NCBI GenBank assembly: GCA_030024085.1
Contig: JASEJE010000008.1
Span: 1 to 64,000, forward strand
DNA: 64,000 nt
Reading direction: 5' to 3'
Origin: Bacillota bacterium
GTDB lineage: Bacteria; Bacillota; SHA-98; UBA4971
In this document: positions 1 to 64,000 of the stretch, piece by piece
Position numbering within the stretch: the first letter of the stretch is position 1
Layout: the number at the start of each line of letters is the position of its first letter
Position numbers and translations under genes: made by a program
Notes under the pieces: model-generated
Told to the model about the DNA's origin: nothing
Seen by the model: the letters and a program-made list of their open reading frames with translations, nothing else
Databases searched by the model: none

Positions 1-106
1 GGCGAAGCGCGCCCCGCTTGGGGCGCCGTCCCCGAGTGCAACACCGGCAACCCTGGACAGGACTCACCCGCTGAAAAGCAGCGCGAACTTGTGGCGATCT
101 ACCTAG
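1..106 (+). repeat. Right part of dispersed palindromic element, copy 1, cut by window edge
   Basis: This stretch matches the right half of the element seen complete at 2015-2225, 39530-39739, 43308-43519 and 56747-56963. It shares the arm CACCGGCAACCCTGG, the small hairpin around GCTGAAAAGCAGC, and the end GTGGCGATCTACCTAG. The left half lies outside the window. Confidence 0.8.
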
Positions 107-2014: not shown

Positions 2015-2225
2015 CTAAGTATGGCGCCACAAGTTTGCGCCATCTTCCCTGACGGTGTTGGGGTTGCCGGTGCCTGCTAGGGCGGGGCGCCTGGAATTTG
2101 GCTAGCCCGCGCGCCAAATTCGAACGCATCTCACCGCACGCGCCGCCCCCGGAGGGCAACACCGGCAACCCTGGCAAGGGCTCACCCGCACGAAAGTAGC
2201 GGGAACTTGTGGCGATCTACCTGGG
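2015..2225 (+). repeat. Dispersed nested-palindrome element, copy 2 (complete)
   Basis: 211 bp with imperfect terminal inverted repeats: the left end CTAAGTATGGCGCCACA resembles the reverse complement of the right end. Inside are the paired arms GGTTGCCGGTG / CACCGGCAACC and the inner arms GAATTTGGC / GCCAAATTC. There is no coding capacity. It is MITE-like, or a very large intergenic palindrome. Confidence 0.85.
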
Positions 2226-36520: not shown

Positions 36521-36604
36521 TGCCTTGCATCTCCTCTTGTCGAGCCCGGGTCCTCTCCGAGGTTGCTGGCACCTGCTTCCCTGCCCGCCTGCTTGCCTAC
36601 CTGC

Positions 36605-36712
36605 AGAGGACGGCGCGCCTCGTTCGGACCTGGCGCTCAAAGCCCGCCAAATCCCAGGCGCTCCGCGCCATGGCAAGCACTTCGATCCCCAACAGCGTCG
36701 GGAATGCCGTCG
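36605..36712 (-). repeat. Degenerate remnant of the dispersed palindromic element (copy 6)
   Basis: Alignable with the middle of the copy at 43308-43519: CGCGCCTCGTTCGGA, TGGCGCTCAAAG, GCCAAAT, then CCCAACAGCGTCGGGAA. The terminal repeats are not recognisable. It lies between atpI-like and atpB. Confidence 0.6.
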
Positions 36713-36793
36713 CAGGCTCACGGCGTCATGTCCAGGTGATGTGCGGACGGGCGTGGCGCCACTGGGAACGGCCTCCGTGCCGGTCCGATGCGC

Positions 36794-38745: not shown

Positions 38746-38801
38746 GCCTCTAACCCTCCTTGCTATGTCGCGACGGGCCCGGTCGGGGCTGCTGCGAGGT
38801 C

Positions 38802-39533
38802 ATGAGGAGTGATAACGTGGTAAGGGCGATACTGTTCGATCTGGACGGCACTCTGGTTCACTACGATTTCGACGCGTTCATCAGGGAGTACCTGGCCGCC
38901 CTCGGCGCGAGGCTGGCGAGCATAGTCGAGCCCGGCCGCCTTGTGAGGCAGGTTATGAAGTCCACCGACGTGATGGTGAGGAACCTGGACCCCCACAAGA
39001 CCAACCGCGAGGTGTTCGCCGAGGACTTCTTCCCAGCCGTAGGGATACCCGGTGACGTGCTCATGCCGGTGTTCGACGATTTCTATCGCCGTGACTTCCG
39101 GTTCATCAAGGACCGACTGGGGATACGTCCGCACCCTGACGCCCGGCGCATGCTCGAAGGCCTTATCTCCAGGGGGATTGACGTGGTCATAGCCACGAAC
39201 CCCGTGTTCCCTCTCATCGCCATCGAGGAGCGCATGAGATGGGGAGGCCTCGACGGGCTTTCGTACAGGCTTGTGACATCTTACGAAACCATGCACTTCT
39301 GCAAGCCCAACCGCGAGTACTATGAGGAAGTCCTCGCGCTCATCAGTCGCACGCCCGAGGAGTGCTTCATGGTGGGCAACGATGTCGAGGAGGATATCAT
39401 CGCGGGCACGCTCGGGATGAAAACGTACCTCGTGGAGGACTTCCTCCTCGATCGCGGCCGGGCGCAGAACCACCCCGACTTCCGGGGCACCTTCGAGGAC
39501 CTTGTGCACTTCATGGAGCGCGGGCGATTCTAA
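38802..39533 (+). CDS. HAD-superfamily hydrolase
   Basis: About 243 residues. It shows the nucleophile motif FDLDGTL at the start, IATNP (motif II), a Lys in FCKPNREYY (motif III), and GNDVEEDI (motif IV). An alpha-helical cap lies between. Phosphatase substrate unknown. The start may be ATG 38802 or GTG 38817. The TAA stop is supplied by the first bases of the palindromic element at 39530. Confidence 0.85.
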   Translation: MRSDNVVRAILFDLDGTLVHYDFDAFIREYLAALGARLASIVEPGRLVRQVMKSTDVMVRNLDPHKTNREVFAEDFFPAVGIPGDVLMPVFDDFYRRDFRFIKDRLGIRPHPDARRMLEGLISRGIDVVIATNPVFPLIAIEERMRWGGLDGLSYRLVTSYETMHFCKPNREYYEEVLALISRTPEECFMVGNDVEEDIIAGTLGMKTYLVEDFLLDRGRAQNHPDFRGTFEDLVHFMERGRF

Positions 39534-39739
39534 GTAGATCGCCACAGATTCGCGCTACTTTTCAGCGCGCAGGTCCTCGCCAGGGTTGCCGGTGTTGCCC
39601 TCCGGGGACGGCGCGTGCGGTGAGATGCGTTCGAATTTGGCGCGCGGGCTAGCCAAATTCCAGGCGCCCCGCCCTAGCAAGCACCGGCAACCCCAACACC
39701 GTCAGGAGAAGTGGCGCAAACTTATGGCGCCATACTCAG
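39530..39739 (-). repeat. Dispersed nested-palindrome element, copy 3 (complete, inverted)
   Basis: 210 bp, opposite orientation to copy 2. It starts CTAAGTAGATCGCCACA and ends GGCGCCATACTCAG. The inner arms GAATTTGGC / GCCAAATTC and outer arms GGTTGCCGGTG / CACCGGCAACC are exact. It fills the whole gap between two convergent genes and carries both their stop codons. Confidence 0.88.
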
Positions 39740-41661
39740 TCCGCGCTTCCGCCTCCGCCCCCGATACCGCCGCCTCCGCCACCGGAGAACCCGCCGCCTC
39801 CGCCCGACTCGGACGACTTCACGCTCGTGGCTGTCAGAAGCGAGCGTTCGAGCGATGTAGTCAGGTTAGTGAGGGTGGATGCGAGATCGGTGGCAGAGGA
39901 GGCCATAAGCCACCCGTGCCCGATCGCAAGGCCCGAGCCTGGCTCGGAAAGCTCCGGGAACACCAGCCTGAGCTGGTCTATGACCTGCTTTGCCACGCCC
40001 AGCGTGACGGCGTACACGAGGTAGTGCTCCCACAACACCAGCGCCGGCACGGGGGCGTCGTGCAGGGACGAGAAGTCCAGAAGGAACCTGCGGAACGCCC
40101 GCCACATGGCAAACTCGGTCTGGCCCTTTTGTGAGCGCCTCTTGATGGCCGCAGAGATCACGACCACCATGATGCCGGTGACTATCCATGCGATGCCACT
40201 AGGCGCAAGCGCGACCGAGACGACGATGGCGCCGACGCCCGCGAGGATAAGGCCGATGCCCGTGAGGATCCCGATGAGCCTTCCGGTGGCTGCCGTCCGG
40301 TCGAAGAAGTCGTTGCGCCCGGCGTCCGCCCGTACCTTCGCCTGCCAGTCGTTGTATTGCTGGAGAAATGGGCCCGGGTGCTTCTTTGCGTAGGCCTCTA
40401 TCTCGTCGAACGTCACGACCTGGTTGTCCCCGACCGTGTAGAACAGGAGATTATAGAGGGCCTTCTCGTGCTCGAGCAGATCGTCGTCTTTGCCCTTGTC
40501 AGTCCTCTTGATAACGTACTCCACTTCGACGGCCGTTCCCAGAAGCCCGAGAAGGCGCTTGCGCTCCGTCCTCCGCTCCTCGATGCTCAGGTAGCCGCGC
40601 CTTGCGAGATCCATCACGGTCGCCGTAAAGTCGGCTGGGCCCGGTGATCCGAAACGCCACAGCACCCCGAGTTCGGCGGGGGTATACATGGCGGGGAGCT
40701 CCCTGTAGTAGTCGCCCGAGAACTCCGGGACATACTCCCGGTCGTATCGCCGGTAGACGAATCCGAACCACAAAGCGAGAACCAGCAGGACCACGCCCGG
40801 CGCAAGGTACACGTTGAGCCTTCCAAGCCGGCGCAATGCGGCCTGGCGCTCGGCCGCCCTTTCCCTCGCGATGTTGGCCTCCCGCGCAAGCGCCCTCTCC
40901 TCCTCCATGATCGGGGCGAGCGCGTTTCTGCCGGACGTCCTCGTGGCCGCGGGGACGATGGCCTTCGGGAATACCACCCTCGCCTCGACGAATGTCTTTG
41001 CAGGAAGAGGAGCAACCGACAGAGTCACGAGCGTCGGGCTTTCGATGGATATGGCGCCCCACAGCGGGCCATGAGCCCACGCCTTGATGTCGTCTTTCCG
41101 CGCCCCCGCGGGCAATGCGATGGCCACGTGGGCCTCTGGGGCACCCACGTCCCACTGGTCTCCGACACACTTCCAGTAAAGCTCGGCCACATCGTTGTGG
41201 GACACAACCGCCCCACGGATTCGGTATCCGAGGGTAAATGTGCGCGACTCATCGCGTGCCTTGAAGTGCCAGGCTATCTCGATCCCGTCGGGCGCCTCCT
41301 CGACCCGGTACGTGCCGGGGACGCGTTCGTCCCCAGAACCCCTCGTCAGAGTGTATTCCTTGCCTCCCTCGCTCACAGCGATATCCGTGACACGCACGCC
41401 TTCTGCAATGGGGATCCACTGCCTTACCCTGGAAAACTCCCCGTCGAAGCGGAACGTGCGCTCCTCGCGGACGATGAGGGAGCCGTCCCTTTCAACGCGC
41501 GCCTCGATGTTGACGTTGGATAAGGAGAGCTCCCTGGCCTGCACTACCTGGCCCACCCAAAGAACAGCGGATGCGACCAGCGTCGCCAGAACGACGGCCA
41601 TGACGCCGGGCTTGCGCGTGTGGGGGCGACCTGTCATCATTGCCATCATCGGGAACACCAC
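39736..41661 (-). CDS. DUF2207 predicted membrane protein (YciQ-like)
   Basis: 641 residues. A signal or anchor segment (about 20-38) is followed by an extracytoplasmic beta-rich DUF2207 domain (about 45-250, RVRQWIPIAEG, LGYRIRGAVVSHNDVAELYWKCVG). One helix lies near 285-305, a cytoplasmic region next, and a helix pair near 460-510. It ends in a Gly-rich tail (GGGGGFSGGGGGGIGGGG), typical of the family. Function unknown. Its stop lies in the flanking palindromic element. The start is GTG 41661 or ATG 41649. Confidence 0.85.
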   Translation of the reverse strand: MVFPMMAMMTGRPHTRKPGVMAVVLATLVASAVLWVGQVVQARELSLSNVNIEARVERDGSLIVREERTFRFDGEFSRVRQWIPIAEGVRVTDIAVSEGGKEYTLTRGSGDERVPGTYRVEEAPDGIEIAWHFKARDESRTFTLGYRIRGAVVSHNDVAELYWKCVGDQWDVGAPEAHVAIALPAGARKDDIKAWAHGPLWGAISIESPTLVTLSVAPLPAKTFVEARVVFPKAIVPAATRTSGRNALAPIMEEERALAREANIARERAAERQAALRRLGRLNVYLAPGVVLLVLALWFGFVYRRYDREYVPEFSGDYYRELPAMYTPAELGVLWRFGSPGPADFTATVMDLARRGYLSIEERRTERKRLLGLLGTAVEVEYVIKRTDKGKDDDLLEHEKALYNLLFYTVGDNQVVTFDEIEAYAKKHPGPFLQQYNDWQAKVRADAGRNDFFDRTAATGRLIGILTGIGLILAGVGAIVVSVALAPSGIAWIVTGIMVVVISAAIKRRSQKGQTEFAMWRAFRRFLLDFSSLHDAPVPALVLWEHYLVYAVTLGVAKQVIDQLRLVFPELSEPGSGLAIGHGWLMASSATDLASTLTNLTTSLERSLLTATSVKSSESGGGGGFSGGGGGGIGGGGGSAD

Positions 41662-41883
41662 CTTCTTCCGTGAATCGGCGGACTTCGTGGCTGGTCAGCG
41701 TCTACACTTCGCGAGTCATCTGCATTATCCTCGTTGCAGACGCGACTTTCTGTTATGGGCGTTTAGTGCTGCTTTGTCAGATGCGGAATGCCATCCGGTT
41801 CGGCGGGTCTGGCGCGCCAGTCTGGGGGCCGACTCCTGGCCCTGGCGGCCCTTTCCGCGTTCCGCGCAGTCCGCGGGAAACGC

Positions 41884-42319
41884 GCGATGTACCGAACGGG
41901 TAACACGGAACGAGTGATGTGCGTCAGCGATTGGGTTCGACGTGTGACGTAGAACGGGTAAGGCCTGGACCGGTGACGTACATCACCGGACGGCTGTGAG
42001 GCGTGACGTACGGAACGGTCGAGGGGGGACCCGTGATGCACATCACTGGTGCCGGCCCGACGAGTGACGTACGGAACGCTTCGTGGAGAACCCGTGATGT
42101 AGGGAACGGCTGAGGAGGAACCCGTGATGTACATCACCGCTTGGCCCCCGATGCGTGACGTATGGAACGGGAAGAGCGTGACGAGTGACGTGCGTCAGCC
42201 TTCTCCTAACATATGTGACGCACGGAACGGGTAAGCACCGGACCGGTGATGTACATCACTCGATGGTTCTCCGGCGTGACGTGGGGAACGGCTCCGGAGG
42301 GACCCGTGACGTGCGTCAG
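41884..42319. repeat. Array of 15 helically phased 30-bp units with alternating site types
   Basis: Each unit has a 14-bp core GTGA-N6-X. X is TCAC or TCAG in type B (the perfect palindrome GTGATGTACATCAC at 42124 and 42246) and GAAC in type A (GTGACGTACGGAAC at 42003 and 42064). Cores start at 41884, 41914, 41944, 41973, 42003, 42033, 42064, 42094, 42124, 42155, 42185, 42215, 42246, 42276 and 42306, so the period is 29-31 bp, about three helical turns. Types alternate A,B except for one A,A at units 7-8. It lies in the 902-bp divergent gap between the DUF2207 gene and the small peptide gene. No frame is open across it. Confidence 0.9.
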
Positions 42320-42563
42320 CCGTCGGCTCAAGTGAAGGCACTACCATGCGCTCCATATGTAACAGAGCAGTATTAGGCATGAGTTCACAAGTCCATGCCG
42401 GTTTGGGAGAAGATTCCGGCTGCATGCAAGATCCTGTCGAACTCTCCCGGCTGCCAGAAGGAATCGCGGGGCCACGTTGCGAATGTATAAGAAAACGGTG
42501 GACTGTGAGTGCGTCGGAACCTGAGTCGTGAGAAGGTAAGCAGCAGAAAGGGGGTGAGGAGGA

Positions 42564-43307: not shown

Positions 43308-43519
43308 CTAGGTGGATCTCCACAAGTTCGCGCTGCTTTTCAGCGCGCAAGCACTGTGCAGGGTTGCCGGCGTTGCACGCCGGGGGCGGCGCGCTTGCGG
43401 CGCGCCTCGTTCGGATTTGGCGCTCAAGGCTAGCCAAATTACGGGCGCCCCACCCTAGCAAGCGCCGTCAACCCCAGCACCGTCAGGAAACGTGGCGCAG
43501 ACTGTGCCGCCATACTTAG
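43308..43519 (-). repeat. Dispersed nested-palindrome element, copy 4 (complete, inverted)
   Basis: 212 bp, starting CTAGGTGGATCTCCACA and ending CGCCATACTTAG. It is more diverged in the middle (TTCGGATTTGGCGCTCAAG, then GCTAGCCAAATTA). It follows the PspC gene and ends 19 bp before the sigma-54 activator start, so it is part of that gene's leader. Confidence 0.85.
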
Positions 43520-56746: not shown

Positions 56747-56963
56747 CTAGGTATAGCGCCATGAGTTTGCGCCACTTTTCCTGACGGTGTTGGGGTTGCC
56801 GGTGCTTGCTAGGGCGGGGCGCCTGGGATTTGGCTAGCCTTAAGCGCCAAATTCGAACGCATCTCACCGCACGCGCCGTCCCCGGAGGGCAGTACCGGCA
56901 CCGGCAACCCTGGCGAGGACCTGCGCGCTGAAAAGTAGCGCGAATTTGTGGCGATCTACTTGG
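56747..56963 (+). repeat. Dispersed nested-palindrome element, copy 5 (complete)
   Basis: 217 bp, same orientation as copy 2. It starts CTAGGTATAGCGCCATG and ends GGCGATCTACTTGG. The inner arm reads GATTTGGC/GCCAAATTC, and one arm contains a short ACCGGC duplication. It follows the gdhA terminator. The remainder of 56512-57115 holds no gene. Confidence 0.88.
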
Positions 56964-63256: not shown

Positions 63257-64000
63257 ATGGAGCATCACAGCGGAAGGTCGAGGATGGGGCTATCGGTCGT
63301 GGCTTCGCTCATGATTCACGCTGCCGTAATACTGCTCATACCGATCGCGAATCCAGGCACAATCGTGATCTACCCCGTGGAGTTCGGGGAGATTGAGCAG
63401 ACGTTCGAGTCGCCAAGGGCGGGGATCCCTAACGGCGATGCCGTCACCGCTCCCCAGCCCGCGGCGAGCACCGCACAGCAGGGTGGACCTCTCGAGGGGC
63501 CGGAGACGCAGGTGACCGTGAAGCCTGCGCCCAGACCCGCACCGAAGCCGGCACCGGAGGCGGAGCCGAAGCCGGAACCGAAGCCGGCGCCCACGCCGAA
63601 GCCTGTTCCGAAGCCGGAACCAAACCCAGAGCCGGAACCTGCCCCGAAGCCGAAGGCGAAACCGCAGACGCCGCAAGCTGCTCCGCCAAAGCCACAGAAG
63701 CCGGCGCCTGCTCCGCCGTCAGGTCCTGCGTCCCCGGCAGCCGGGGCCCCTGCCCAGGGAGCGGGCGCGGAGACGGGAGCAGGGGCGGCTTCAGCAACAC
63801 CTGGCACAGCACCTGAGAACGTGCTGACCGGCAAGTCAGACGAGACCGTTCCCGCCCCGCCGACCGGTGCGGCTGGGGGAGGGGGCACCGCCGCGTCCGG
63901 AGGCGCCTCGGCAGCGACTGACGCCGCCGAGGGTGCGGCAGGAGATGCAGGGCACACGGAACCAGGGCCTGTTCGGCCCTCACAGCCTTCGGAGCCTGCC
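63257..64000 (+). CDS. tonB: TonB-like protein, truncated by the window edge
   Basis: Open for 248 codons to the window end. The short cytoplasmic N-terminus (MEHHSGRSRMG) precedes a membrane helix with SVVASLMIHAAVILLIPIA. The SxxxH pattern (SLMIH) is the TonB helix motif that contacts ExbD. A long Pro/Lys/Glu/Ala linker with repeated PKP and PEP follows from about residue 100. The C-terminal receptor-binding domain, if any, is outside the window. Position after exbBD supports the call. Confidence 0.78.
   Translation, partial: MEHHSGRSRMGLSVVASLMIHAAVILLIPIANPGTIVIYPVEFGEIEQTFESPRAGIPNGDAVTAPQPAASTAQQGGPLEGPETQVTVKPAPRPAPKPAPEAEPKPEPKPAPTPKPVPKPEPNPEPEPAPKPKAKPQTPQAAPPKPQKPAPAPPSGPASPAAGAPAQGAGAETGAGAASATPGTAPENVLTGKSDETVPAPPTGAAGGGGTAASGGASAATDAAEGAAGDAGHTEPGPVRPSQPSEPA

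Follow-up and report, generated by a model that had tools for sequence, protein, structure and literature searches.

MITE-like elements, probably of IS630 type, with a covarying branched core in a Bacillota genome and its relatives

What are the palindromic elements of about 210 bp that recur in a 64,000-nucleotide stretch of Bacillota DNA (the window), and what keeps their arms paired? An initial annotation, made from the letters of this stretch, had left them as possible MITEs, bidirectional terminators or structured RNAs. The analysis favors the first of these identities with a probability of about 0.88: non-autonomous, MITE-like elements of the IS630/Tc1-mariner type that duplicate TA in CTAG. 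This kind of element is known. What is unusual is a branched core whose pairing has been preserved in two bacterial families through compensating mutations.

Copies in the window and in related genomes

HMM and covariance-model searches recovered all six places named by the annotation, with nearly exact coordinates and in both orientations (Table 1), at covariance-model E-values from 1.2e-18 to 3e-4. The outer and inner arms that it had described were located in the copy at 2015-2224. The 5' part of the partial copy lies before the window start, and this copy is a chimera of two subfamilies, C for the core and A for the end.

Table 1. Elements, arms and adjoining genes in the window
Feature	Position	Strand	Description
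Partial element	1..106	+	C-type core (P3 onward) and A-type right end (...GATCTACCTAG); CM match 1-53, nhmmer 22-109, sequence
Complete A-type element	2015..2224	+	C-TA-AGTATGGCGCC ... GGCGATCTACCTGG
P1 5' arm (outer arm)	2061..2072	+	GGGTTGCCGGTG; sequence, pairing
P2 5' arm (inner arm)	2094..2102	+	GAATTTGGC; sequence, covariation
P2 3' arm (inner arm)	2113..2121	+	GCCAAATTC; sequence, covariation
P1 3' arm (outer arm)	2160..2171	+	CACCGGCAACCC; sequence, pairing
Decayed element	36545..36736	-	HMM and CM, CM E = 2.3e-5
Gene ending in element 39530-39739	38760..39533	+	C-TAA-GT terminus of the element provides the stop TAA (39531-39533)
Complete A-type element	39530..39739	-	Both ends supply stop codons of a convergent gene pair
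Gene ending in element 39530-39739	39736..41661	-	Stop TGA (39738-39736) inside the other terminus
Solitary decayed B-type end	42373..42413	+	TTAGGCATGAGTTCACAAGTCCATGCCGGTTTGGGAGAAG; abuts the ~615-bp repeat
Complete element	43308..43519	-	P3 hairpin retained; no element at the orthologous site of G002, G003 and G004
Complete A-type element	56747..56963	+	No element at the orthologous site of G002, G003 and G004; length agrees with a TA duplication

The host genome (G000), which contains the window, is a 3.11-Mb draft in 65 contigs, of which 846 kb were searched with HMMs. This yielded 107 elements or about one per 8 kb, so that the six copies in 64 kb, which had been considered dense, are ordinary for the genome. 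A pattern of the element ends matched 396 times in the host, compared to 17 times for the reversed pattern used as control. With a covariance model of the core, at least 150 cores were detected in the host, 137-146 in three congeners and 41 and 4 in two others. The sister genus contained 1-13 cores in six of its seven genomes, the two genomes of a second family (g3) contained 97 and 34, and two genomes of a third family gave no core. Copies are thus not restricted to the window, and of the 17 genomes of the class, 14 contain the core; the relatives that carry it are uncultured Bacillota MAGs. No copy was found in the viral contigs, phages and plasmids searched, and the window gave no Rfam match at the gathering threshold. 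Several host contigs start inside an element (e.g. C6, C14, C23, C34 and C49), and near-identical copies and IS elements may therefore be missing from the assembly.

Termini, target site and a candidate partner transposon

Intact copies measure about 190-217 bp, lack genes, as had been annotated, and are dispersed in large numbers, as is characteristic of MITEs. They start with CTAAGT and finish with ACTTAG (C-TA-AGT...ACT-TA-G), and carry the imperfect terminal inverted repeats of about 30 bp that had been noticed earlier. Different ends define the subfamilies A (CTAAGTATGGCGCC), B (CTAAGTGTGAGTTCAGAAATCC) and C (CTAAGTGAGGGTGCAGAAATGC), with further types in other genera. Subfamily A is the commonest here, and 30 of its copies show pairwise identities of 85-97% (median 91%). 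Ends and cores are found in various combinations: some A-like cores lie within B ends, a left end of type C was found with a B right end, and several end sets are common to one core.

Presence and absence at orthologous sites were established for two window copies, those at 43308 and 56747, whose sites are unoccupied in three congeners (Table 1). At 56747, a relative reads AGCGTAGAATTTATATTTTCT-GGGAA where the host reads AGCGTAGAATCT-[C TA...TA GG]-TTCTCGGGAA, and the empty site has the length expected for insertion into a YTAR site with duplication of TA. At 43308, precision is limited by intergenic divergence, the comparison being one between species. For the gene that ends at 39739, element-free orthologues in G001 and G005 end in GAC-TAG, which is the predicted CTAG target. 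The target-site duplication is thus TA with a preference for CTAG, as seen from the termini, the stop codons at the terminus, the GAC-TAG orthologues and the length at 56747. A longer direct duplication is excluded by the termini themselves, in which C and A surround the left TA and T and G the right TA, and inspection of the flanks by eye gave no consistent direct repeat longer than TA. IS630 also inserts at the TA in CTAG, according to Tenzen and Ohtsubo (1991) as cited in PMC6811581.

The same target accounts for the position of the elements relative to genes. Among 43 precisely bounded copies, offset 4 of an end coincides exactly with the stop codon of a gene in 12 (about a quarter); any other offset within 60 bp holds no more than two. 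The element at 39530-39739 terminates two convergent genes at once. Insertion into a C-TAG stop would produce C-TAA-GT and leave the gene end undamaged; it is tolerated because the element restores the stop as TAA, and many copies therefore start exactly at a gene end. This rule shows a way for a CTAG-targeting element to enter gene ends without harm. In the 846 kb of host DNA, CTAG is scarce, at 0.45 per kb, and a simple codon-usage caller gave 636 genes there, of which 28 end in C-TAG.

The annotation had proposed to look for an autonomous transposase with the same ends, and an IS with such ends was found in related genomes. G015, a second-family genome that carries the core, contains a 1143-bp IS630-family element (L099:883-2025) with HTH_29/HTH_23 and DDE_3 domains and one in-frame TGA. 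Its termini are CTAAGT...ACTTAG and its ends read CTAAGTTAGTGTCC... and ...GTGCATTAACTTAG. These boundaries were confirmed by extra copies, namely right ends in G015, a left part in G016 (97% identical) and an IS in G014 that is 74-76% identical and has a 290-aa open frame. The host genome yielded no DDE_3 transposase, and its genus decayed copies only, among them relatives in G001 and G004 whose protein is 70% identical, though repeats are frequently missing from draft assemblies.

The left end of the G015 element resembles every MITE end type beyond CTAAGT (p <= 0.007). The motif GCCACTTTnCCAGG occupies positions 25-38 in the left ends of the G014 and G015 elements and in the B-type MITE end. 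The match to the IS ends is strong for the B and g3 ends and weak for subfamily A. A few of 18 CTAAGT control sites scored as high as the IS ends, and some of these may be unannotated solo ends. IS and MITEs thus have common ends, and the IS transposase is a candidate for their mobilisation, as judged from sequence. The DDE_Tnp_1 transposases of the genus were considered as partner and rejected, being without CTAAGT ends. A scan of 1.5 Mb for long elements bounded by terminal inverted repeats returned only pairs of neighbouring copies. The fragment L246:1211-1678 in G016, a third-family genome, is about 97% identical to the G015 element, which suggests a recent transfer of the IS between families.

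Structure and covariation of the core

The element folds far better than shuffled sequences (RNA z = -4.3, DNA z = -5.3). Its core of about 112 nt can fold as a three-way junction consisting of a closing stem P1 and two further helices, P2 and P3. P1 is formed by GGGTTGCCGGTG/CACCGGCAACCC followed by TTGC/GCAA and GGGG/CCCC, whereas the P2 stem is GAATTTGGC/GCCAAATTC in subfamily A and AAATCCGGC/GCCGGATTT in C. The P3 hairpin occurs as GCGCGC-CGCAA-GCGCGC, GCGCCCC-GCTT-GGGGCGC or GCCTGC-CGCGA-GCAGGC. Within P1, a tandem G-A opposite G-A is present in 39 of 59 representatives. Much of subfamily A is without both P3 and the tandem G-A motif; as this subfamily is the commonest here, spread does not strictly require the complete core.

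Compensatory changes, which the annotation had named as a check on the arms, are strong. A hand-defined structure was used for the counts, with slid and shuffled versions as controls; the consensus fold of RNAalifold was inconsistent. On 59 diverse cores, 89.3% of the cells were paired compared to 32-44% with slid partners, a difference favored by the structure having been read from the same sequences; this does not explain the two-sided changes, which affected 20 pairs and 133 cells. None of 500 shuffles reached any of five measures. Parsimony on the tree gave 38 inferred two-sided events in 19 pairs, compared to 1-7 with slid partners. Between families the core is 76-79% identical, while alignable coding DNA is about 65-70% identical.

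The decay of inserted copies was examined separately. An RNA acting from one strand would make copies tolerate G-U over A-C. In 196 copies, G-U (152) and A-C (139) were about equally common, with the columns dominated by subfamily-fixed states (30-81, 46-67, 83-106 and 92-101) left out of the count. Inserted copies therefore decay as double-stranded DNA, without a strand-specific RNA constraint, and selection of the RNA in place is unlikely. It must be in the propagating copies that pairing is upheld, either because transposition selects for it or because mutation is directed by the palindromes, and probably this occurs at the level of DNA. The interiors of MITEs are usually taken as free to drift, whereas in this family the covariation of the interior is like that of a structured RNA. 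As single copies decay freely, the family offers a testable case in which structure is kept during transposition, or through palindrome-directed mutation, rather than where the copies have inserted. A literature search found no covarying cores of bacterial MITEs.

Competing explanations and known systems

The reading as structured RNA was weighed in two parts. The annotation's suggestion holds insofar as the core covaries strongly, but not for the inserted copies, which tolerate A-C as readily as G-U. A structured ncRNA or mRNA-stability element, acting in the transcripts of neighbouring genes and selected for its fold as RNA, would fit the covariation, the low folding energy, the tandem G-A in P1 and a slight preponderance of the sense orientation where gene pairs are tandem (47 vs 28). 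It is nevertheless improbable, given the lack of strand-specific constraint, sites that differ between species and the loss of P3 in the most numerous subfamily. A riboregulator was likewise considered and is not supported. That the elements are bidirectional terminators spread between convergent genes is very improbable. The long GC-rich hairpin and copies at convergent gene ends, such as the one at 39530, speak for it, but the gene-pair classes match the background. Most elements are intergenic, and the pairs flanking 102 of them were tandem in 79 cases, divergent in 12 and convergent in 11, as compared to 268, 45 and 38 of 351 intergenic gaps. There is thus no enrichment between convergent genes, and the association with gene ends is explained by insertion at C-TAG stops.

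An account that differs from the preferred one only in what keeps the core paired assumes an ordinary MITE with an unselected core, in which compensatory changes arise by mutation through template switching in quasi-palindromes. Such switching works on any palindrome without selection, and both the absence of strand bias and the spread of subfamily A despite its broken P3 agree with it; many single-pair changes over three separate helices, with intermediates, argue against it, as does the conservation of the unpaired tandem G-A, which switching would tend to remove. We regard this account as possible, though doubtful. A further proposal, which is rather unlikely, takes the core for a functional module of DNA (or RNA) that is selected for its fold with the conserved tandem G-A and has exchanged its transposon ends several times. 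It would then be a structured passenger, moving from one IS630-type end set to another and persisting in more than one bacterial family.

The MITE reading itself is carried by the TA/CTAG target, the empty sites, the end subfamilies, the genus-wide copies and the IS630 element with the same ends. The outcomes that the annotation had named as refuting it, namely confinement of the copies to the window and a lack of covariation and mobility, were each checked and none was observed. Most likely, an IS630-family transposase recognising a subterminal end motif mobilised the elements in trans. The core was transmitted with compensatory changes and in combination with several different end sets, so that pairing persisted as the family propagated, and copies decay without strand bias once inserted.

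In its workings the family resembles TA MITEs of the IS630 type, of which RUP (repeat unit of pneumococcus) is an example, and it shows the defining features of such MITEs wherever they could be tested. Mobilisation of RUP by IS630-Spn1 has been proposed, and RUP is likewise short and gene-less, with TA at the insertion point, IS630-like ends, about a hundred copies per genome and a palindromic fold (PMC3049150, PMC2229807). In contrast to the GC-rich elements of 190-217 bp described here, RUP is AT-rich, 107 bp long and enriched between convergent genes (PMC3049150, PMC2229807); the present family further differs in that a single covarying three-way core is combined with several end sets in two bacterial families. 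ERIC/IRU and Correia/NEMIS are also small palindromic repeats with TA at their termini, but are described as single long stem-loops (PMC2229807), whereas here the core is branched, the end sets differ and Rfam gave no match. As a precedent for an armed, conserved fold, CIR (Caulobacter/Brucella intergenic repeats) comes closest, with two arms and conservation between genera; CIR, however, carries a GANTC motif and is without terminal inverted repeats (PMC2229807), while the elements here have such repeats and a TA duplication. With IS630 they have target and duplication in common (Tenzen and Ohtsubo 1991, as cited in PMC6811581), but IS630 encodes its transposase and they do not. MITEPsy1 is a short MITE able to use CTAG targets, with a 4-nt duplication and ISPsy2-like ends (PMC3189936), whereas the present elements fit only the 2-nt TA duplication.

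Further repeats were observed beside the family. In a congener, a stretch of about 140 bp (L131, ~2044-2182) has similar ends (GGTGAGGGTGCAGGAAACTGTCC...GGACAGTCTCACGCACCCTCACTTAG) and a different interior, and is possibly a further MITE family with the same ends. Another dispersed repeat, about 615 bp long, is represented by one copy at 41763-42377 of the window. It has inverted ends TAGTACTACTnTGTCAG... and an interior of degenerate units of about 61 bp bearing GTGATGTACATCAC and GTGACGTACGGAACG palindromes, and occurs in about 30 copies in the host genome and in few in congeners. CTAAGT elements often lie exactly at the end of this repeat, where its terminus would form CTAG. Tandem 12/18-bp repeats (CCGAAGCCGGCACCGGAG) at 63518-63726 of the window apparently belong to a proline-rich coding stretch.
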